Source: an uncultured Eubacteriales bacterium
Lineage (GTDB): Bacteria; Bacillota; Clostridia; Lachnospirales; Lachnospiraceae
Reading direction: 5' to 3'
DNA: 32,951 bases
Assembly: GCA_900315665.1 (NCBI GenBank)
Contig: OMZX01000028.1
Span: 1-32,951 of the forward strand
Below the pieces are notes generated by a model. That model ran no database searches. It was not told the origin of the DNA and saw nothing but the letters and a program-made list of their open reading frames with translations. This document shows positions 1,220 to 12,243 of this stretch, one piece after another. A program made the position numbers and the translations under genes. How positions within the stretch are numbered: the first letter of the stretch is position 1; each line of letters starts with the position of its first letter.

Positions 1220-2695
1220 TTATTCCTTTGGTCTTTGTGCCGCAGGCGGTATCGTATACCAGGAGGGCAGTTTATTATGTTCGCTTTCCGTGAATGCGTC
1301 CGTCATGTCTACATTATCCTGCAGCTGCCAGTCATTTAATGCAGTCGCACCGTCAAGATATGTTCGCCCCTTAAATGCATTCCGCATGGTCGTGACCTTG
1401 GAAACATCCCATCCTGCTAATGCAGATGCATTTACATACCCGGCATGATCCTCTGTAGAAGAATTGAAGTCGTCAAGATTTGTAAGACTTGTCGTCTTCC
1501 AGGCTGCAAGGGACTTGAAGTTTTTAAACCATGTATCCATTCCTGCCATATTCTCTACATTTGAAACATTCCACGGTATAAACCCTGATACAAAAGAATC
1601 AGAAAATGTGTTAATGTCCGTATCCGCAAACATATAGGACATATCCTTCACATTCGAAACATCCCATGCCGCAAGATCCTCAACGATGCCGATGTCTGTT
1701 CCATAAAACATATGAGACATGTTGGTCACATGTGATACATCCCAATTTTTAAGACCACTTAGACTGCCAAAGCTTTTACTTCCGCTGAACATTTCAGATG
1801 TATCCTGTATGCTGGAAGTATCCCATTCCGCGATACCACCTGCGCTGCCCAATTTTTCGCAGCCCATAAACATCTGTGAAACCGTCTTCACGTTCGACAT
1901 ATTGAATTTATTAAGACCGGTAAGCGTGCTAATCTCGGCACAATCTTTAAACATTGCCGTCATATCTTCTGTATAATCCGTCTTGAAAAATTCTGTCACA
2001 TTACTTGCCCAGCCAAGTTCAGAAAATCCCTCATACATGTGCGAGCAGTTTCTGTTGGCGTAAATTTCTTCAGCCTCTGAATAATATCTGAAAATGTTGT
2101 TGAAGTCCTGGTCTCTGAAGAAGTACACCGGATGCATGCTGTCCTCCGTAGAAATCGTGATGTATTCAATACCCGGTCCCATAGAGTTAGCCTCAGATAT
2201 CAGCCCTACATTCTTGATATCCTCTCCCAGGAATTCTTTCAGACGTTTGTTATACTCTGGTCCCGGAAGGAGATAAGCTGTTCCACTCTTACCTTTGATT
2301 TCTTCCGGGATTTTTTCATCTTCGGGAATATCTGAATTTCCGCCATCATCCTTTGTTTCTCCGGAATCTTCCTTGCTTTCTCCCGGATTATCCGAGTCAG
2401 TCTCTGACGGGCTCTTGGACTCGTCAGTGCTTTTTGATTCCTCAGAACTCTTAGTTTCTTCAGGGTTCTTTGATTCTTCCGGATTCTCAGGATTCTCACC
2501 GGTTTCTTCAGGTGATTCCTGCGTCGGATCTGTTTCCGTCGGTGACGGCACTGGAAACTGCGATAATGAGAATGGATTGGACAGTACATTGCTGTTTCCC
2601 GAATAGAGTGCCTTCGCCGACCCTGTTCCATATAAAAAGGCCGACGTAATGCCAGCCGCTATCATAACCTTCAAAATAATTCCTGTTTTTTTCAC
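1220..2695 (-). CDS. BspA-like (DUF285) secreted surface protein with SipW-type signal
   Basis: A 491-residue exported protein. Residues 1-29 form a signal peptide, followed by ALYSGNSN and PFSL. The TasA-like protein upstream has a similar ALYGGRSN...FSI stretch, suggesting processing by the same SipW-type peptidase. Residues 50-133 are a Pro/Ser/Glu/Thr-rich linker. Residues 200-460 carry repeats of about 25 residues built on W(D/N)VSxVxxMxxMF, typical of the DUF285 family of BspA-like adhesins. No LPXTG or C-terminal membrane segment is visible. The start is GTG at 2695 behind AAAAGGGG; the reading frame has no better choice. It follows the frameshifted chimera and precedes the terminator at 1178. 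Adhesion is the usual role of the family; here it is inferred. Confidence 0.82.
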   Translation of the reverse strand: MKKTGIILKVMIAAGITSAFLYGTGSAKALYSGNSNVLSNPFSLSQFPVPSPTETDPTQESPEETGENPENPEESKNPEETKSSEESKSTDESKSPSETDSDNPGESKEDSGETKDDGGNSDIPEDEKIPEEIKGKSGTAYLLPGPEYNKRLKEFLGEDIKNVGLISEANSMGPGIEYITISTEDSMHPVYFFRDQDFNNIFRYYSEAEEIYANRNCSHMYEGFSELGWASNVTEFFKTDYTEDMTAMFKDCAEISTLTGLNKFNMSNVKTVSQMFMGCEKLGSAGGIAEWDTSSIQDTSEMFSGSKSFGSLSGLKNWDVSHVTNMSHMFYGTDIGIVEDLAAWDVSNVKDMSYMFADTDINTFSDSFVSGFIPWNVSNVENMAGMDTWFKNFKSLAAWKTTSLTNLDDFNSSTEDHAGYVNASALAGWDVSKVTTMRNAFKGRTYLDGATALNDWQLQDNVDMTDAFTESEHNKLPSWYTIPPAAQRPKE

Positions 2696-2730
2696 GGGTG
2701 ATTACCCCTTTTCATCAATGCCTCCATTCT

Positions 2731-2766
2731 GTCTCCTCTTCCGGATCGGTACCAAAAAGAGGAGAC
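2731..2766 (-). other. Inverted repeat before the BspA-like gene
   Basis: GTCTCCTCTT (2731-2740) and AAGAGGAGAC (2757-2766) are perfect 10-bp arms around a 16-base loop, located in the 124-base gap between two surface genes. There is no T tract on the minus strand. An mRNA processing or stabilising hairpin, or an operator, would fit; neither is shown. Confidence 0.45.
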
Positions 2767-2819
2767 TTACTGCTTTCTGTTTATATTTTGTTAATGCTTG
2801 CCCTTCGTATAATGGATAC

Positions 2820-4305
2820 TCATCCCGGAATGTAAGCTCCTTCAGCATCAACGAGACGGCCATCCGGTGTCCGTTCATTCTGATACATTGAACCGTAGCT
2901 TCGGAAGCCGATGGCATCGTAAAGCCATTTCCCAACATTCGTCTGGAAGAACCAGGTCTGTTTGGGAATATCATCCGCAGTGGCAAAATAATAATATTTC
3001 TCGCCGATCTTCTGCCACCCGGTCAGCATATGACCTGTGTTAGGATGCAGGTAATACTTTTTATTATCCTGACTGTTTGTATGCCATCCCTTTGAGAGAA
3101 CGCCGAGATTTCCATCAGAAATATCATGTGCAAAATACCAGTTGCCGTCATCCGAAAGAATCCAGCCGGTTTCCATCCGACCGTTATCATTAAACTTAAA
3201 CCAACTTGCCTTGCCATGATCATCCTTTCCGTATGGATTCTTGAGATACAGCCAACCGTCCTTTGCAGCCGATCCGTCCGTTAACGTAAAAGACCAGTGG
3301 TTCTGATCCTTATCAATCAGCTGCCACTGGCCGTCTGTAAATGTGTTAACTCCAACACCATATGGGTTCTTGTACATGCTGCTATTGCCTGAAACTAAAG
3401 CAAAGCCCGGTCCGATACCGGCTTTGTCACTGCTGACAGATACACCTTTCCGAACGGTACCGGATCCTCCTCCGCCTGAAGAACTGCTCTTTTTCGAACT
3501 GCCGCTCGAAGAACCACTACCAGATGAAGTTTTTCCAGAAGTACTATCGTTGGCGGAAGCTTTTCCAGATGTACTGCCACTGGATGAACCGCTTCCATTC
3601 GAACTATGGTCCGACGAATTACTGCCCGATGAATTACTGCCTGACGAAGTATTTCCATCTGATGAACCCTTAGCAGAGCTCTCATTACCACCATCTGCAT
3701 TATTTTTCTTATCGGTAGATTCTGCATCGGATATTCCATTATCTTTATCAGGTTTCTGTTCCTTCGAATCATCATCCGAATCGCTTTTATTTCCCTGGTC
3801 GTCCTTTGAATCTCCCCTTTCAGGTACCTTCTCTGTGAAATCCAGCTCTTTCTCATCTCCCCAGGGTTTATCACTTGCAAAATCAGGCAGAAAGCCTTCT
3901 GCCTGCACAGCCTGCGCTTCCGAAGAAATGGAGAACTTTTCTCCATCCGAACGCTTCAGATCCGGCACATGGACGCCTTTACTAAAGATTATTTCTTCAT
4001 TCTTCTGCACCGGCTTCACATAGTAAAAATAGCCGCTTTTCTTCTGCCAGTCATCCGAGATACCGGTCAAAATCGTATCATCAAAATCTCTTTCCGATTT
4101 GATGTCCACTTTCACACGGACATAAACCGGATCAGATTCATTATAGACAGTAAGAACATAAGGTACTTCTTCTGATCGATGTCTTTCCTGCAGCTTCTGT
4201 CATGCTTCCTGTTTCTGAAGCATAGACCGAAATCACAGGACTACCCACTATAAGCCCTAGAATCAAAGGAAAGATGCCTGCCTTCAATCTAATTCTTTTC
4301 ATCAT
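2820..4305 (-). pseudogene. TasA-like / cell-wall-binding-repeat chimera, frameshifted
   Basis: Two frames together make one plausible secreted protein. Frame A starts with ATG ATG at 4305/4302, overlapping the previous stop, and encodes a signal peptide ending near VYASETG. It then stops at 4141-4143. Frame B is open from 4199 and continues with the TasA/camelysin-like core PVYVRVKVDI, a Ser/Gly-rich linker, and about 200 C-terminal residues of aromatic-glycine repeats (GWYF-like, for example TGWQKIGEKYYYF) of the choline/cell-wall-binding type. The frames overlap between 4199 and 4141; skipping one base near 4165-4175 (AGAAGAAG) would join them as ...TSIREVPYV. The only start inside frame B is an internal GTG at 4115. 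It may be a broken gene, a programmed +1 shift, or a sequencing error. Confidence 0.75.
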
Positions 4306-5979: not shown

Positions 5980-6039
5980 GGACAAGAATAGACAATTTTG
6001 GACATATTACGACAATAATGGACAAGAATAGACAATTTT
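5980..6039. repeat. Six decamers with exact 10-bp period
   Basis: The 60 bases divide exactly into six decamers of form NGACAANNNN: GGACAAGAAT, AGACAATTTT, GGACATATTA, CGACAATAAT, GGACAAGAAT, AGACAATTTT. The first and last 20-mers are identical. One helical turn per unit puts all the GACAA cores on the same DNA face. An activator or operator array for the adjacent promoter, or replication iterons beside repA, are the two readings. Confidence 0.8.
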
Positions 6040-6148: not shown

Positions 6149-6161
6149 GCCACTAAATGGC
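6149..6161. promoter_or_regulatory. Isolated copy of the parB palindrome (parS-like)
   Basis: GCCACTAAATGGC, extended by G and C to 15 bases at 6148-6162, is the same 13-mer as the commonest copy inside parB, read in the other orientation. It is outside coding sequence, 15 bases beyond the repA stop, so protein coding cannot explain it. Confidence 0.65.
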
Positions 6162-6176
6162 CATAGTGAAATTAAT

Positions 6177-7268
6177 TCAGACACTGTATGCATTTGCGAT
6201 ATCATAATTTGCCTCCGCGCGATAATAGAGGTTTATCGTTGCCGGTGCATTGTAAAGCGCTGCCAGTATATATTTCTTGATGTTCCAGATCTTGGTTGTA
6301 TTTGTCTTCATGCATGAAAGAACGTATTCCAGATGATCTGATGTGAGCGTCTGAAATTTCTCCTTCACCAATGCTGCAGGGTGATCTTCACCAGCAATAT
6401 ACAGTTTCTTCGCGGTACTATGCTCCGTCTCGAAGATCAACTCTGCCATTTCCCTGATAATCCCCTGATCCAGTGGATACTGCTTAACAAGCATGGCTAT
6501 TCCCAGTCTTTTCCAGAGCTTCTGCTTCTCAGCACTAATGCTATCCATCCCATCCATCAATCCTGTTTCATTTGCTATGGCTTCTCTGTCATGATTGATA
6601 GGATAGGATATATTAATATTATTATTAATATCTTCAGTATTATTTGGGTTTGATTTCGGGACTTCTAGAAGTTTATTTTTTAAACCTCTAGAAGTTTGAT
6701 TTTTAAACTTCAAGAAGTTTGAAATCGGGACTTCTGAAACTTTTTCATCTTTGAAGTTTAAATTTGGTACTTCTGAAACCTTGCCATCCTTGAAGTTTGG
6801 AATTGAAGTTTCTGAAGCTTTCTCTTCCTTGAAGTTTGATTTCGAGACTTCTGAAATCTCCTCTTGAGAACACTGATCCTTTGCTGCAGCATCATCAAGA
6901 GCGCTCGAAAAGTTCTTCACATAGATCCTGGTTTCCCTTCCCTGACCCTGACGCTTTTTCTCAATCAAGCCTACGCCACTTTCAGAATCCAGTTCCTTCA
7001 TCGAAGCAATCGCCTTATTCCGTCCACAATGAAGCATTTCACAGATATCTTCTACTGAATAATAGATAAATACACGGTTTTCTTCGTCCATCCACTGATT
7101 TTTTGTAGACAGAGACATCCGGTCGAGCATCAGACCATAAAGAAGCTTCGCATCCGTAGACAGCTTCTCGAAATAAGCATGGGTAAATAACACTTTCGGA
7201 ATCCGATAGAAGGTGTACCGGTCTGCTTCACTTCCGTAAAAATATTTGAATACAGGCTTACTTTCCAT
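6177..7268 (-). CDS. repA: RepA_N family replication initiator with DUF6017-like C terminus
   Basis: Replication initiator of the RepA_N class of Firmicute plasmids and conjugative elements (363 residues). Residues 6-85 are the RepA_N winged-helix domain (YRIPKVLF, LSTDAKLLYGLMLDR, CGRNKAIASM). Residues 138-190 are four 13-residue repeats of the form SExxxxNFKxxKx, encoded by DNA iterons. An Asn-rich, AT-rich segment follows at about 208-225. The C-terminal 115 residues match the DUF6017-like end of such proteins. The start is ATG at 7268 behind GGAAAGGAGA; an in-frame ATG at 7310 lacks a site and would overlap the upstream hairpin. In known RepA_N replicons the origin lies inside the rep gene, which fits the iterons here. 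It is the last gene of the parA-parB-rep set. Confidence 0.85.
   Translation of the reverse strand: MESKPVFKYFYGSEADRYTFYRIPKVLFTHAYFEKLSTDAKLLYGLMLDRMSLSTKNQWMDEENRVFIYYSVEDICEMLHCGRNKAIASMKELDSESGVGLIEKKRQGQGRETRIYVKNFSSALDDAAAKDQCSQEEISEVSKSNFKEEKASETSIPNFKDGKVSEVPNLNFKDEKVSEVPISNFLKFKNQTSRGLKNKLLEVPKSNPNNTEDINNNINISYPINHDREAIANETGLMDGMDSISAEKQKLWKRLGIAMLVKQYPLDQGIIREMAELIFETEHSTAKKLYIAGEDHPAALVKEKFQTLTSDHLEYVLSCMKTNTTKIWNIKKYILAALYNAPATINLYYRAEANYDIANAYSV
6609..6869. repeat. Iteron arrays and AT-rich tract inside repA (candidate oriV)
   Basis: GAAGTTT recurs at 6668, 6691 and 6714 (period 23), then at 6753, 6792 and 6831 (period 39). The 39-bp units also share an ACTTCTGAA-like half about 15 bases on, giving a dyad. 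Positions 6609-6652 are an A/T tract that could melt. An origin inside the initiator gene is known for RepA_N replicons; the placement here is inferred. Confidence 0.65.
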
Positions 7269-7325: not shown

Positions 7326-7682
7326 TCATGCTGTCTCCCTCTCGAGGCTCTTAACATAGAGAAGACTCGGCATTCCGCCACCCCGGCATTTCTTCTCGAC
7401 AAGTCCGGCTCTTTCAAGCTCAGACAGACAATCTACCGCCTTTCGCTTCGAAATATTGAGATCCTCCTCAATATCTATCAGCGGATAAATAATAAAAACC
7501 TTTCCATCCTCATCAATCCATCGATTCTTCTCCACCATGCTCAGTCGATCCAGAAACAGCCCATACAAAAGCTTCGCCTGCAATGAAAGCTCAGAGAACC
7601 CATTCTCAGTAAGCATTTTCTTCGGAATACGAATAAACGCAAATTCCTCCGCGTCCTCCTGATAAAAGTACTGAAATATCAT
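7326..7682 (-). CDS. Stand-alone RepA_N domain protein
   Basis: A 118-residue paralogue of the N-terminal domain of the downstream initiator. It shares (F/Y)xRIPKxxxT, LxxxAKLLYGLxLDR, (K/N)xW(M/I)DExxxVFIxY and a helix-turn-helix with LIEKK/LVEKK. It has neither the repeat region nor the C-terminal domain. Its ATG overlaps the parB stop as ATGA, with GGAGG 6 bases upstream, so it is translated in step with parB. A DNA-binding regulator of replication, or a helper initiator that binds the same iterons, are reasonable inferences. It is not a fragment: both ends are clean and its own ribosome site is good. Confidence 0.7.
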   Translation of the reverse strand: MIFQYFYQEDAEEFAFIRIPKKMLTENGFSELSLQAKLLYGLFLDRLSMVEKNRWIDEDGKVFIIYPLIDIEEDLNISKRKAVDCLSELERAGLVEKKCRGGGMPSLLYVKSLERETA

Positions 7683-8872
7683 TCCAATGCCTCCTTCATA
7701 TTGCTATCCTTTTCCTCTTTTTCATGCCACTGTTGAAGAAGCTTGAGCACAATCTGTTCCCTTTCAGTGATGCTGTAATCAGCTGGGAAATACTGGTCGA
7801 GTGTCTTCTTAGAAAGCTGAAGAGAACCAGTCGGCTTTGGTTTCCGATACGCATCATTGAGAAGCGCAATCATTGTATACTGCGTCATGTTGTCAAGATT
7901 CGGGTGCTCCTTCAGTACCGCAACCTGCTGTTGCTTGATTGCACCATTTTCCTTAATGTATTCGTAAAGCCATTTCTGAATGTCCTGATTGAAATAAGAA
8001 ATATCGACAGCCAGTGCAATAGCCAGCTTTTTCTCATCCACTAGATGGAGGAGACCTTCATAAAGATACGTTAAACGTATATATTTCCGGACCTGAACCC
8101 GCTTCATGCCGAAACCTTCGCCCACACGATCTGCTGTCGTTATCCTCGGCCACTTTGTGGCGGATGTTTCATGATCCTCACTGTGAGTCTTCAGCCATTT
8201 AGTGGCGGAAGTGTCTTCTTCAGATTCCTTCAAATTCTTCGGCCATTTAGTGGCCGTTGTTTCTTCCAGAGATTCCTGGTCCTTCGGCCACTTAGTGGCT
8301 GATGTATTTTCTCCGTCATCATTTCCTTGAGTCTTCGGCCATTCAGTGGCCATTGTCTCCCGTGTATTCTCAGAAAACCTTGGCCATTTAGTGGCTAATG
8401 TCTCTTTCTCTAGAAGATCTGTCCGTCTTCCCTGATGCCGCAGCGCATCCATTTTCATCTTTAAGGCAAATGCCCGTTCGCTCGGAAGAATCTCCTCCCG
8501 CTGAATATTCGAATCCACCATCGCTATCGTCGCCTCATCATTTGTCATTCCTTTGATAATTGCAGGAATCGTCGTAAGTCCGGCAAGCTTCGCTGCATGC
8601 GTCCTTCTATGTCCGGATATCATCTCATAGGTTCCTTCATCATCCGGACGCACCAGTACCGGTACCAAAACACCGTTTTCCTTGATGCTCTCAACAAGAT
8701 CAAACATCCGGTCATCATCGATAACCTTGAAAGGGTGATTCTCGAAAGCATGGATCTGATCGATCCGAATTTCGGTTGCATCCTCCTTTGTCACTGGTGC
8801 ACCGAGGATTTCCTCGACAGATGCAAAATGAATTCTGTCTCTTTTCTTTTGTCCGCCTGCTTTATTCTGCAT
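7679..8872 (-). CDS. parB: ParB/Spo0J-family partition protein with embedded palindrome repeats
   Basis: Partition protein of 397 residues that would bind centromere sites and work with ParA. Residues 33-150 are the ParB N-terminal domain, with GHRR at 88-91 and the NIQREEILPSERAFA segment. Residues 160-250 are an unusual insert: six repeats of 15-17 residues, each opening with ATKWP (variants ATEWP and ATKWL). A helix-turn-helix region follows at about 250-300. Each ATKWP codon block is a near-perfect DNA palindrome, so the insert may be kept for its DNA. The start is ATG at 8872, with AAGGAGGTG 7 bases upstream, overlapping the parA stop; a longer frame to 8938 has no site. Typical relatives lack this insert as far as can be recalled. 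Confidence 0.88.
   Translation of the reverse strand: MQNKAGGQKKRDRIHFASVEEILGAPVTKEDATEIRIDQIHAFENHPFKVIDDDRMFDLVESIKENGVLVPVLVRPDDEGTYEMISGHRRTHAAKLAGLTTIPAIIKGMTNDEATIAMVDSNIQREEILPSERAFALKMKMDALRHQGRRTDLLEKETLATKWPRFSENTRETMATEWPKTQGNDDGENTSATKWPKDQESLEETTATKWPKNLKESEEDTSATKWLKTHSEDHETSATKWPRITTADRVGEGFGMKRVQVRKYIRLTYLYEGLLHLVDEKKLAIALAVDISYFNQDIQKWLYEYIKENGAIKQQQVAVLKEHPNLDNMTQYTMIALLNDAYRKPKPTGSLQLSKKTLDQYFPADYSITEREQIVLKLLQQWHEKEEKDSNMKEALE
8149..8395. promoter_or_regulatory. Six palindromic 13-mers inside parB (candidate parS array)
   Basis: Copies begin at 8149, 8194, 8242, 8287, 8338 and 8383 and fit GCC-A-(C/T)-T-N-(A/T)-G-TGGC. The copy at 8287, GCCACTTAGTGGC, is a perfect palindrome about its central base. 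Spacing is 45, 48, 45, 51 and 45 bp, all multiples of three because the region is coding. Copies at 8242 and 8338 extend to 15 bp. Bases between copies vary far more than the 13-mers. Confidence 0.7.
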
Positions 8873-9647
8873 GCTGTAACACCTCCTTCGTGAGCGTCGA
8901 ATACGCCGCTGCAGCCTTTCCCTTCGGATCGTAATCATAAATACTCTTAGCCATCGCCGTCGTTTCTGATGCCTTGACAGAGAGTGGAATGCTTACATCA
9001 AATACATGTATCGTCTCGCCGTAGACCTCCTTTACCTCCGCAATAATATCTCTTGCATAGTTTGTTCTTGCATCCACGATGGTAAGAAGAATTCCCTCAA
9101 AACGAAGCTTCTGATTTAATCTTCTCTGAATCGTCGCAATCGTCTTGATCAACTGCTGGAGTCCCTTGACAGGAAGATACGCTGCCTGCACCGGAATCAG
9201 CACGCTGTCAGCACAAGCGAGAGCATTGATTGTCATAAGACTTAAGGACGGCATACAGTCAATCAGAATATAGTCATATTTTTCCCGCAGTGGCTCTACG
9301 AAGCTCCGGTATATCAGTTCCCGGCTCATCACATTCGTAAGTGATATCTCTGCGCCGGATAATTCAATGTTTGCTGGAATCAGATCCACACCTGCATCCG
9401 TAGACATGATTCCGTAAGACTCCGGGAATTCCTCTTCATTCACGACCTTTTCAATGACATCTACGATCGTTGCACTCAGCTGGTCCGGTTCACGAATGCC
9501 GAGACACATCGTGAGCGAAGCCTGCGGATCAGAATCAATCAGGAGAACTCGCTTACCTTCCTTGGCAAGTCCAACACCGAGGTTCATCGCCGTTGTCGTT
9601 TTACCCACACCACCCTTTTGGTTTGCTATTGCTATTACCTTTCCCAT
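8862..9647 (-). CDS. parA: ParA/Soj-type partition ATPase
   Basis: A 261-residue Walker-type ParA ATPase that moves or positions the replicon over the nucleoid together with ParB. The deviant Walker A motif KGGVGKTT is at 11-18, the D-rich switch LLIDSDPQAS at 35-44, and the Walker B-like LIDCMPSLSLM near 128-138. There is no N-terminal HTH, so it is of the short Soj-like type. The start is ATG at 9647 behind GGGAGAATG, 4 bases after the previous stop. It overlaps parB by 11 bases. Chromosomal soj is unlikely because the neighbours are RepA_N proteins and conjugation genes. Confidence 0.93.
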   Translation of the reverse strand: MGKVIAIANQKGGVGKTTTAMNLGVGLAKEGKRVLLIDSDPQASLTMCLGIREPDQLSATIVDVIEKVVNEEEFPESYGIMSTDAGVDLIPANIELSGAEISLTNVMSRELIYRSFVEPLREKYDYILIDCMPSLSLMTINALACADSVLIPVQAAYLPVKGLQQLIKTIATIQRRLNQKLRFEGILLTIVDARTNYARDIIAEVKEVYGETIHVFDVSIPLSVKASETTAMAKSIYDYDPKGKAAAAYSTLTKEVLQHAE

Positions 9648-10163: not shown

Positions 10164-10424
10164 TCATGAATCCTCCTTTCCCTTACGAAGCTCATTCATA
10201 TGAACATGAAATCGTTCCAGATACACATCCAGAACATCCTTCTTGATGAGAACCAGATTCTGTGACACCCGATAAAGTGCTCCGGCAGCATCTGCCAGCT
10301 CAATAACTCTGTGTCGCTCCATGTCATAGACAATTGCGGCATCTCTTGTCGTGATAAATTCCCTACGGAGAGCACGGACACTATCGACCTGCTCCCGTCT
10401 CCGTTCTGACGGATCCTTTTCCAT
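10164..10424 (-). CDS. DUF6462-like HTH protein, first paralogue
   Basis: An 86-residue protein with REFITTRDAAIVYDMERHRV as its HTH and ALYRVSQNLVLIKKDVLDVYLE as wing and last helix. AAGGAAGG lies 7 bases before ATG at 10424. It is the first recognisable gene of the element next to lysS, hence the likely first gene of the par-rep operon. Position beside the presumed attachment end suits an excisionase or a master regulator, but that is inference from place, not proof. Confidence 0.6.
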   Translation of the reverse strand: MEKDPSERRREQVDSVRALRREFITTRDAAIVYDMERHRVIELADAAGALYRVSQNLVLIKKDVLDVYLERFHVHMNELRKGKEDS

Positions 10425-10496
10425 CGCTTTTACCTTCCTTCTAAAATGAAATTTTTGTTCATCGATCCTTTAGCCATGGAAAAATGTGCAAAAGAA

Positions 10497-10535
10497 AAAG
10501 CACTTCTTAAAATTTGATCTTTTAAGAAGTGCTTT
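10497..10535 (-). terminator. Terminator downstream of lysS / element boundary
   Basis: AAAGCACTTCTTAAAA (10497-10512) and TTTTAAGAAGTGCTTT (10520-10535) are perfect 16-bp arms with a 7-base loop; the minus strand continues into a T-rich run. It stops lysS transcription before the element's first gene. The 262 bases between lysS and that gene hold only this and the 11-bp repeats. Confidence 0.75.
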
Positions 10536-10621
10536 GTAGTAGGCTTTACCCTATTCCAAAATTTATTCAATTCGGTCTGACAAACTATTATTCCCTGTTA
10601 TTACCCGCCATTAGATGACGA

Positions 10622-10643
10622 TTTGTTGTCAATTTGTTGTCAA
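10622..10643. repeat. Tandem 11-bp repeats at the lysS end (candidate attachment-site arm)
   Basis: TTTGTTGTCAA occurs twice in direct tandem, 44 bases beyond the lysS stop. On the minus strand this is TTGACAACAAA twice. Tandem 11-bp repeats near the ends of Tn916-like elements are integrase arm-binding sites. The crossover point would lie between here and the lysS stop; its partner copy is beyond the left edge of the window. Confidence 0.45.
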
Positions 10644-10686
10644 CTTTCATTTTCGAGCTCTGAAACCCGCGTAACTACGTGCTTTT

Positions 10687-12243
10687 TCAGTCGATCCTTT
10701 TCATTGTCGGGAACAAAAGTACATCTCTGATTGCAGGGCTGTCAGTAAGTAGCATCACAAGACGATCGATGCCGTAGCCAATGCCTCCCGTAGGCGGCAT
10801 GCCGATTTCCATAGCATGCAGGAAATCTTCATCTGTGTGGTTAGCTTCCTCATCACCTGCTGCCGCAAGCTTATCCTGCTCTGCAAAGCGAGCGCGCTGA
10901 TCGATCGGATCATTGAGCTCGGAGTAAGCATTGCACATCTCCCGGCCGTAGATATAGAGCTCGAAACGTTCTACCTTCGACGGATCCGACGGCTTCTTCT
11001 TCGTAAGCGGAGAAATCTCTACCGGGTGATCCATGATGAAGGTCGGCTGAATCATCTTCTCCTCACAGAAGGTCTCGAAAAACGCGTTCTCGATGTCGCC
11101 CACCTTATGACGCTCTTCGAACTCGACGTTATGCTCCTTCGCAAGCTTCCGCGCGGTCTCAAGGTCCTTCACCTCATCGAAATCAACGCCACAGGCCTCC
11201 TTGATCGCCTCTGTCATCGTGAGACGACGGAACGGCTTCCCGAGGTCAATTTCTGTGCCCTGATAAGTAATCGTCGTCGTACCGCAGACCTTCTCTGCAA
11301 GATACCGGAACATGGACTCTGTGAGCTCCATCATACCGTTATAATCCGTATACGCCTGGTACAGCTCCATCAGCGTAAACTCAGGATTGTGGCGCGTGTC
11401 GACACCCTCATTACGGAAGACACGGCCGATCTCGAACACACGCTCCATGCCGCCGACGATCAGCCTCTTCAGATAAAGCTCAAGAGAAATACGAAGCTTC
11501 ACATCCTCATCGAGTGCATTGTAATGCGTCACGAAGGGTCTCGCCGCTGCGCCGCCGGCATTGTCCACGAGCATCGGCGTCTCAACCTCCATGAAGTCAC
11601 GACCCGCAAGGAAATTACGGATCTCATGAATGATCTGCGAACGCTTGATGAAAACAGACTTCGACTCCTCGTTCATGATGAGATCGACATAACGCTGACG
11701 ATAGCGGGTATCGGTATCCGTAAGCCCATGGAACTTCTCCGGCAGCGGATACAGAGACTTTGAAAGAAGTGTCAGAGACTCTGCATGAACGGAAATCTCA
11801 CCCATCTTCGTCTTAAATACATAGCCAGTGATACCGACGATGTCGCCGATATCCAGCTTCTTAAACTTCTTATACGCATCATCACCGAGCGCATCGCGTG
11901 TGATATAAGCCTGGATGCGACCCTGCTTGTCCTCGATGTGCACGAAGGATGCCTTGCCCATGACACGCTTCTGCATGAGCCTTCCGGCAATGCTTACATG
12001 CTGGTTCTCAAGCGTATCAAAGTTTGCCCGGATCTCCTCAGAATGATGCGTCTGATCGAACTTCGTGATCTTATACGGATCCTCGCCTGCTGCCTGCAGC
12101 TCTGCAAGCTTATCAAGACGAGCCTGTACGATATGGTTGACGTCCTGTTCCGGTGCCTGCGTCCCCTGTGCAGCCCTGGCAGTTCCCTCAGACTGAGCGC
12201 CTGCTGCCTCAATATCCGCTGCCTTCTTCTGTTCCTCTGCCAT
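10687..12243 (-). CDS. lysS: Lysyl-tRNA synthetase, class II
   Basis: Charges tRNA-Lys with lysine in the cytoplasm. It has 518 residues from ATG at 12243, 1 base after the greA stop and behind AGCGAGG; longer in-frame starts at 12261 and 12273 lie inside greA and have no site. The first 40 residues are an Ala/Glu/Gln-rich extension. Then comes the OB-fold anticodon domain (VSIAGRLMQKRVMGKASFVHI) and the class II core, with motif 2 (FEIGRVFRNEGVDTRHNPEFT) and motif 3 (GIGYGIDRLVML). It forms an operon with greA from the promoter at 12852. Its 3' end borders the mobile element but the frame is intact through the usual FPTMK ending. Confidence 0.97.
   Translation of the reverse strand: MAEEQKKAADIEAAGAQSEGTARAAQGTQAPEQDVNHIVQARLDKLAELQAAGEDPYKITKFDQTHHSEEIRANFDTLENQHVSIAGRLMQKRVMGKASFVHIEDKQGRIQAYITRDALGDDAYKKFKKLDIGDIVGITGYVFKTKMGEISVHAESLTLLSKSLYPLPEKFHGLTDTDTRYRQRYVDLIMNEESKSVFIKRSQIIHEIRNFLAGRDFMEVETPMLVDNAGGAAARPFVTHYNALDEDVKLRISLELYLKRLIVGGMERVFEIGRVFRNEGVDTRHNPEFTLMELYQAYTDYNGMMELTESMFRYLAEKVCGTTTITYQGTEIDLGKPFRRLTMTEAIKEACGVDFDEVKDLETARKLAKEHNVEFEERHKVGDIENAFFETFCEEKMIQPTFIMDHPVEISPLTKKKPSDPSKVERFELYIYGREMCNAYSELNDPIDQRARFAEQDKLAAAGDEEANHTDEDFLHAMEIGMPPTGGIGYGIDRLVMLLTDSPAIRDVLLFPTMKRID

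Follow-up and report, generated by a model that had tools for sequence, protein, structure and literature searches.

We found DNA palindromes written inside the parB genes of mobile elements and propose, from sequence comparison, that they are the elements' own parS centromeres, bound by the ParB protein that the same gene encodes; we put the probability of this reading at about 0.87. The palindromes are conserved as DNA and hold a fixed position within parB, their sequence covaries with the DNA-contacting residues of ParB, and in one pair of related genes the palindrome and the helix have been exchanged together. The most elaborate examples come from the window, by which we mean the whole stretch of 32,951 nucleotides that was analysed (contig 31 of the genome of an uncultured Eubacteriales bacterium), and from a second contig of the same genome.

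Palindrome arrays in two parB genes of one genome

In the window, parA, parB, a short RepA_N gene and a RepA_N/DUF6017 rep gene are read in one common direction (Table 1), and these par-rep genes adjoin likely conjugative-element genes as well as chromosomal genes. The start of parB was chosen by inspection as the ATG at 8872 (MQNKAGG...). Its product matches Pfam ParB_N (PF02195, 9.2e-21), an AlphaFold2 model (35 sequences, mean pLDDT 71) matches the fold of ParB/Noc/KorB structures, and the helix-turn-helix (HTH), of Spo0J/Noc-like type, aligns without gaps with two Spo0J structures. Across 28 aligned proteins, G87, H88, R89, R90, A93, N122, Q124 and R125 are invariant and E126 nearly so. 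We take these residues to be the CTP-pocket motifs (GxRRxxA-like and NxQRE-like), and CTP binding is only predicted from them.

Table 1. Positions of par-rep genes and palindromes in the window.
Feature	Position	Strand	Remarks
parA, ParA/Soj-type ATPase	8862..9647	-	Pfam AAA_31, 1.9e-59; overlaps the parB start
parB	7679..8872	-	ORF; ParB_N, disordered array-bearing linker, Spo0J-like HTH, C-terminal part
Six-palindrome array, proposed parS	8149..8395	-	13 bp each, at 8149, 8194, 8242, 8287, 8338, 8383
Coding DNA of recognition helix KRVQVRKY (HMM columns 178-185)	8081..8104	-	Codons counted from 8872
Short RepA_N-domain protein gene	7326..7682	-	Between parB and rep
rep, RepA_N + DUF6017 replication initiator	6177..7268	-	
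Seventh palindrome	6149..6161	.	Non-coding; 15 bp beyond the rep stop codon

A preliminary description of this DNA had listed six 13-mers in parB, recurring every 45-51 bp, and a seventh at 6149. All seven are found at those coordinates, and the measured spacing within the gene is 45, 48, 45, 51 and 45 bp. The consensus given there fits only one of the seven copies exactly, with one mismatch in each of the other six; the best consensus, GCCAYTNARTGGC, is exact in six of the seven, the copy at 8149 having one mismatch. Each copy in the gene had also been said to be read as ATKWP, which is true of four of the six, the remaining two being read as ATEWP and ATKWL. The array was correctly placed as an insert between the ParB N-domain and the HTH: AlphaFold2 pLDDT is below 50 at residues 153-243, with a confident domain on either side.

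The exact GCCAYTNARTGGC pattern occurs at six places in its own genome (2.45 Mb in 121 contigs, 97.6% complete), all of them on this contig. With up to three mismatches allowed, the window has 9 matches where 8.8 are expected by chance, so that the evidence lies in the clustering of near-exact copies. RPE-like in-frame palindromic insertion elements place one palindrome in many unrelated genes. A dispersed element of this kind was considered and rejected, as the exact pattern is absent from the rest of this genome sequence.

Codon choice within the array is distinctive. The Ala codon is GCC in all six copies, compared with 2 of the 24 Ala codons in the rest of parB, and the Thr codon is ACT in five of six, compared with 5 of 27. 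When the window parB was synonymously recoded, all six copies (at most one mismatch each) were kept in 2 of 10,000 trials.

A second ParB of the same genome, encoded on contig 34 and 57% identical to the window ParB, carries an array of four copies at the same place. Its palindrome is a different one, CGACACTNAGTGTCG, and is read as SDTQCRK-type repeats. Among 184 linkers that we scanned, only the window and contig 34 have true arrays; in two further linkers a second, weak match has three mismatches. Of 397 family genomes, one contains the doubled window pattern, its own.

These arrays bear on the idea that selection acts on the peptide repeat, for instance because it binds ParA or DNA, and that the DNA palindromes are incidental. 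The six copies in the window parB do share a reading frame and yield similar peptides. The contig 34 paralogue has a different repeat, of SDTQCRK type, at the same place, codon choice exceeds what recoding would give, the insert is predicted to be disordered and one copy is non-coding; we regard selection on the peptide as very improbable, and rejected it on the recoding result and the different peptide in the paralogue. The earlier argument that it is the DNA, and not the peptide, that is conserved is supported, since relatives swap the peptide and keep the palindrome in place, codons beat recoding and non-coding copies exist. The pattern that would have spoken for the peptide, relatives keeping ATKWP with scrambled codons, was not seen among the 397 family genomes, where the ATKWP array is confined to its own genome.

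Two viral contigs match the doubled pattern with three spaced GGCCAYTNARTGGCC-type palindromes each, at 3744-3814 of L214 and 137-206 of L215. The stretch of about 150 bp around them was not identified as parB; it is open in one of six frames in L214 and in none of six in L215.

A single palindrome at a fixed place in the linkers of relatives

To describe the wider family, we drew ParB relatives from 200 family genomes (184 with a match, part of the places being taken), named genomes, viral contigs and 60 held-out loci. Palindromic ParBs served as seeds for the profile searches, from which we used the best 80 of 590 named-genome loci and the best 80 of 149 viral loci, making this a non-random sample. 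We defined the linker as the stretch between the ParB N-domain and the HTH and called a palindrome at a score of at least 6. The first set comprised 207 ORFs, of which 22 without a measurable linker were dropped to leave 185 distinct ORFs; the held-out loci gave 59 ORFs, reduced to 52 by removing 7 duplicates of the first set.

A linker palindrome is present in 153 of the 185 first-set ORFs, a sample that includes the best 80 of 590 and best 80 of 149 loci, and in 31 of the 52 held-out ORFs. With the window and those same best-scoring loci included, this amounts to 184 of 237 distinct ParB ORFs. Its centre falls on codon position 1 in every case (153/153 in the first set and 31/31 in the held-out set, 184/184 in all). 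The usual form is one palindrome per parB of about 25-29 bp, typically built as AACTTC-inner arm-N-inner arm-GAAGTT, with outer arms that vary little and inner arms that vary much. Synonymous recoding of the 237 linkers would be expected to bring 14.5 of them to the threshold, versus the 184 observed, and 160 of the 237 score higher than all 100 of their recodes. Removing genes with 95% identity or more from the 153 left 135 non-redundant ones, all selected for having a palindrome; their best scores average 10.9, compared with 3.9 for recoded linkers and 3.9 for 1410 other windows of the same genes.

As any DNA palindrome is able to fold as RNA, we also considered whether these are RNA hairpins in the parB mRNA. 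Mismatches between the arms in the 135 genes are A-C in 36 cases and G-T in 23, which indicates no preference for G-U wobble pairs; there are non-coding copies, and the palindrome sequence tracks the HTH of ParB. On the mismatch types and the covariation with the protein we rejected the hairpin, and give it next to no credence.

The presence of the palindrome goes with linker length. It was found in 173 of the 196 ORFs whose linkers are 35-60 residues long and in 4 of the 33 whose linkers have at most 33 residues; 29 of the 53 ORFs without a palindrome have linkers of this short kind. A subgroup comprising L221, L223, L231, L232, L239 and similar loci has 28-residue linkers and helices such as GRTVQRY or AKTVQRY and is without the palindrome. 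The parS of these short-linker ParBs would have to lie elsewhere.

Eight extra ParB loci were picked from among the matches in phage and plasmid collections. Seven have a linker palindrome, the weakest at the threshold score of 6; they represent five plasmid records, one Streptococcus suis phage and one gut phage clone, and two of them share one linker. The eighth, from Acinetobacter, has a linker that could not be measured. A second ParB of the gut phage clone also has a linker palindrome. Second parB-like genes occur near the first at the ends of L009, L010, L011, L012, L014, L015, L016, L019 and L020, and also in L287; the second genes of the former set have linker scores below 6 in 8 of 9 cases, and that of L287 has a strong palindrome.

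Site sequence covaries with the DNA-contacting residues of ParB

The inner arms are diverse. Each half-site position from -4 to -8 shows all four Watson-Crick pair types, and the 135 genes hold 52 distinct half-site cores (-3 to -8). This variation goes with the DNA-contacting residues of each gene's own ParB, in agreement with the earlier suggestion, likewise made from sequence, that the palindromes are probably parS sites bound by ParB or a partner.

We scanned ParB with a sliding window of seven columns, with a correction for similarity elsewhere in the protein. The best window outside the palindrome-coding columns is 178-184, which is the recognition helix (partial r 0.43). Windows between the palindrome and the helix reach at most 0.26, with 0.12 at 170-176. 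A partial Mantel test on columns 178-185 gave r 0.431, a value reached by 0 of 999 permutations. The control block 168-175 gave r 0.246 as well, a signal that we attributed afterwards to column 168, a contact position.

By mutual information, computed for 65 columns only, the leading columns are 180, 168, 179, 183, 207 and 184. In Caulobacter ParB numbering these are residues 174, 162, 173, 177, 201 and 178; this offset derives from the ungapped HTH alignment to Spo0J structures and the residue numbers in PMC7383237 and not from the Caulobacter chain itself. In the accessible part of that study, residues 162, 173, 178 and 201 are named as parS contacts, R201 reads C6 of the NBS, and residues 173 and 201 set specificity (PMC7383237). 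Individual residues pair closely with individual bases in our set, on counts that take two half-sites per gene and are independent neither of each other nor phylogenetically: K or R at column 180 goes with G at -5 (105/106 half-sites), D180 with G at -4 (26/26), N180 with CC (98/104), K183 with GG (30/30), S183 with CG (20/20), F183 with TT (28/34) and R207 with C at -2 (50/50). Where helices are identical and backgrounds distant (32 pairs), 0.87 of the half-site is held in common.

The helix columns had been noticed before the first statistics; the held-out genes had no part in choosing them, although many come from the genomes of training genes. For 31 of these genes, positions -4 to -7 were predicted only from neighbours in which at least 40% of the remaining ParB positions are different. 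Columns 168, 179, 180 and 183 predict the held-out sites at 0.851, versus 0.413 for random neighbours, 0.434 for control columns 169-176 and 0.487 for the rest of the protein. Columns 178-185 predict them at 0.737, and none of 300 shuffles did as well.

These results weigh on a reading in which the correlation is linkage only and another protein binds the palindrome. The palindrome and the HTH, within about 150-180 bp of each other, are exchanged jointly; the control block has its r of 0.246, and columns 169-176 predict the site at 0.604, compared with 0.412 by chance, when no distance limit is set and close relatives are allowed, as linkage would give. With distant relatives only, however, columns 169-176 fall to 0.434-0.488 (random 0.40-0.41) and the four contact columns hold at 0.81-0.89. 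Windows nearer to the palindrome than the helix show the weaker signal, column 168 in the control block is itself a parS contact, column 207, which lies farther away, fits the R201-C6 contact, and identical helices keep most of the half-site across distant backgrounds. The dip between palindrome and helix, together with the held-out test, makes linkage alone unlikely, and we would give it only a very small chance.

One pair of loci shows palindrome and helix changing together. L028 and L029 encode ParBs with 93% identity, and 49 of the 86 nucleotide differences between their genes fall in nt 391-570 of 927, the segment holding the linker palindrome and the HTH. The inner site is GTCCCA in one and GGCCCA in the other, with the helices SRNQIQRY and SKSQIKRF, respectively. 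The two genes thus differ mainly by one cassette with palindrome and helix. Because lock (the palindrome) and key (the HTH) sit within the same short segment, they could be exchanged together as one specificity cassette.

A proposed self-addressed partition gene

From these patterns we infer that ParB physically binds the palindromes and that they serve in partition. A ParB dimer would bind each palindrome through its HTH, one half-site per monomer; loaded ParB would then spread by the usual CTP-clamp route, and ParA would move ParB. Binding of ParB within its own operon would probably also repress that operon. The coding cost would be absorbed by the disordered linker that joins the CTP-binding domain to the HTH, which would make the ATKWP peptide a by-product. 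In this genome, a single palindrome of about 27 bp would have been amplified locally, to six copies (plus one outside) in the window and four on contig 34, and the many copies may bring some benefit of their own. More broadly, we think it probable that a large ParB family of mobile elements, mostly from Bacillota in our sample, is self-addressed in this way, its members carrying their own centromere in the linker, immediately ahead of the helix that reads the DNA, with a residue-to-base code and an exchangeable cassette, and the arrays being in-frame multiplications.

ParB might instead bind the palindromes mainly as an operator, repressing the par-rep operon or regulating transfer. The sites do lie inside the parA-parB-rep cluster, most of 134 loci (the 135 non-redundant set minus the window's own locus) have no second copy within the sequence stretches examined, and the chromosomal genes on the contig suggest that the element may be integrated much of the time. 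An operator would, however, be expected at a promoter and not in the middle of parB. ParB relatives are found on plasmid records (Cohnella, Pusillibacter, Monoglobus, Subdoligranulum and Enterococcus faecalis), and parA lies upstream of parB in 92 of 119 relatives, with none found just upstream in the other 27. We consider a mainly regulatory role unlikely, and the operator and centromere roles are in any case compatible.

Copies of the site outside parB were counted within the sequence stretch of each of the 134 loci. Exact copies of a gene's own site number 4 (0.030 per locus); when the sites of other elements are used for comparison, the figure is 0.002 per locus. They are rare, so that a multi-site centromere is not general. 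In L187 the whole 25-bp site occurs twice in non-coding DNA, +303 and +336 bp downstream of parB. L035, L036 and L037 have long N-terminal extensions on ParB and an imperfect internal site. Near-perfect copies lie close to their parB genes, 12 bp downstream of it in L035 and L036 and 89 bp upstream of it in L037, as though the site were on its way out of parB. We also asked whether co-resident elements avoid a common site and found no support for this, as 3 of 39 within-genome pairs share a site versus 95 of 2446 pairs between genomes.

The chromosomal site parS-359 of Bacillus subtilis has the general chromosomal parS sequence. It lies inside parB (spo0J) according to the available parts of two reports, and is in that respect a ParB binding site within parB like those of the window (PMC4442127; PMC4333373). 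It is a single site, whereas the sites described here are fixed in the linker, variable between members, covarying with the HTH and, in the window, amplified. The nearest precedent is the Lactococcus lactis plasmid pLP712, where a plasmid parB is likewise reported to hold its own parS, a single site that has been used as a one-gene DNA label; the part of that report available describes one site on one plasmid and no family-wide pattern or covariation, and we compared it by description only (PMC6156202). When the E. faecalis parB was used as a DNA query, no Lactococcus record matched. A single parS inside parB is already known from pLP712 and B. subtilis.

Other systems share single aspects of the design. 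In the RepA_N plasmid pSK41, the accessible text places Rep boxes, or the ori, inside rep in the interdomain linker, so that a replicon protein's DNA sites are written in its own linker as in the window (PMC5703833); there the matter is replication and Rep, here partition and ParB. The ParB-parS/Noc-NBS study concerns proteins with the same fold and HTH as the window ParB; two site types were compared there, against the 52 half-site cores among 135 genes here, each site in its own gene (PMC7383237). In the dual ParABS systems of the Streptomyces plasmid SCP1, each plasmid ParB likewise has inverted-repeat parS sites of its own; the parAB1 operon has three identical parS1 sites around it, and the available portion of the report describes no linker-embedded array (PMC13245405). 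A further record, in its accessible part, concerns a cloned parB and not a parS (PMC12207404). In the openly licensed PMC literature we found no report of a linker-embedded, covarying parS.

If the palindromes are parS, centromere sites could be read directly from the sequence of 184 partition genes and others like them, and the HTH recognition code of ParB, detailed for parS and NBS, could be tested with 52 natural site variants. It would also suggest that mobile elements could gain a new partition specificity by a single recombination, and partition would then have its counterpart to an origin placed inside rep.

Both designs seem to be present next to each other in the window, with sites internal to rep as well as to parB. 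At about 6648-6860, within rep, AACTTC/GAAGTT repeats recur at spacings of 23 and 39 bp and are, by analogy, likely to be Rep boxes or the ori. The parB palindromes have a similar motif in their outer arms. The ACTTC outer arms may mirror Rep boxes more generally, although such boxes were enriched in only 9 of 36 RepA_N genes. The non-coding region that holds the seventh palindrome also has an exact 20-bp direct repeat, GGACAAGAATAGACAATTTT, at 5980-5999 and 6020-6039. Two likely surface-protein genes (DUF285 repeats; choline-binding repeat) lie at 1220-4115 as cargo, near a DUF3801 gene. At 10424-10687 the small DUF6462 genes, one of them Xis-like, come to an end, and a class II aminoacyl-tRNA synthetase gene (probably lysS), greA and dus follow; this is the probable end of the mobile element.
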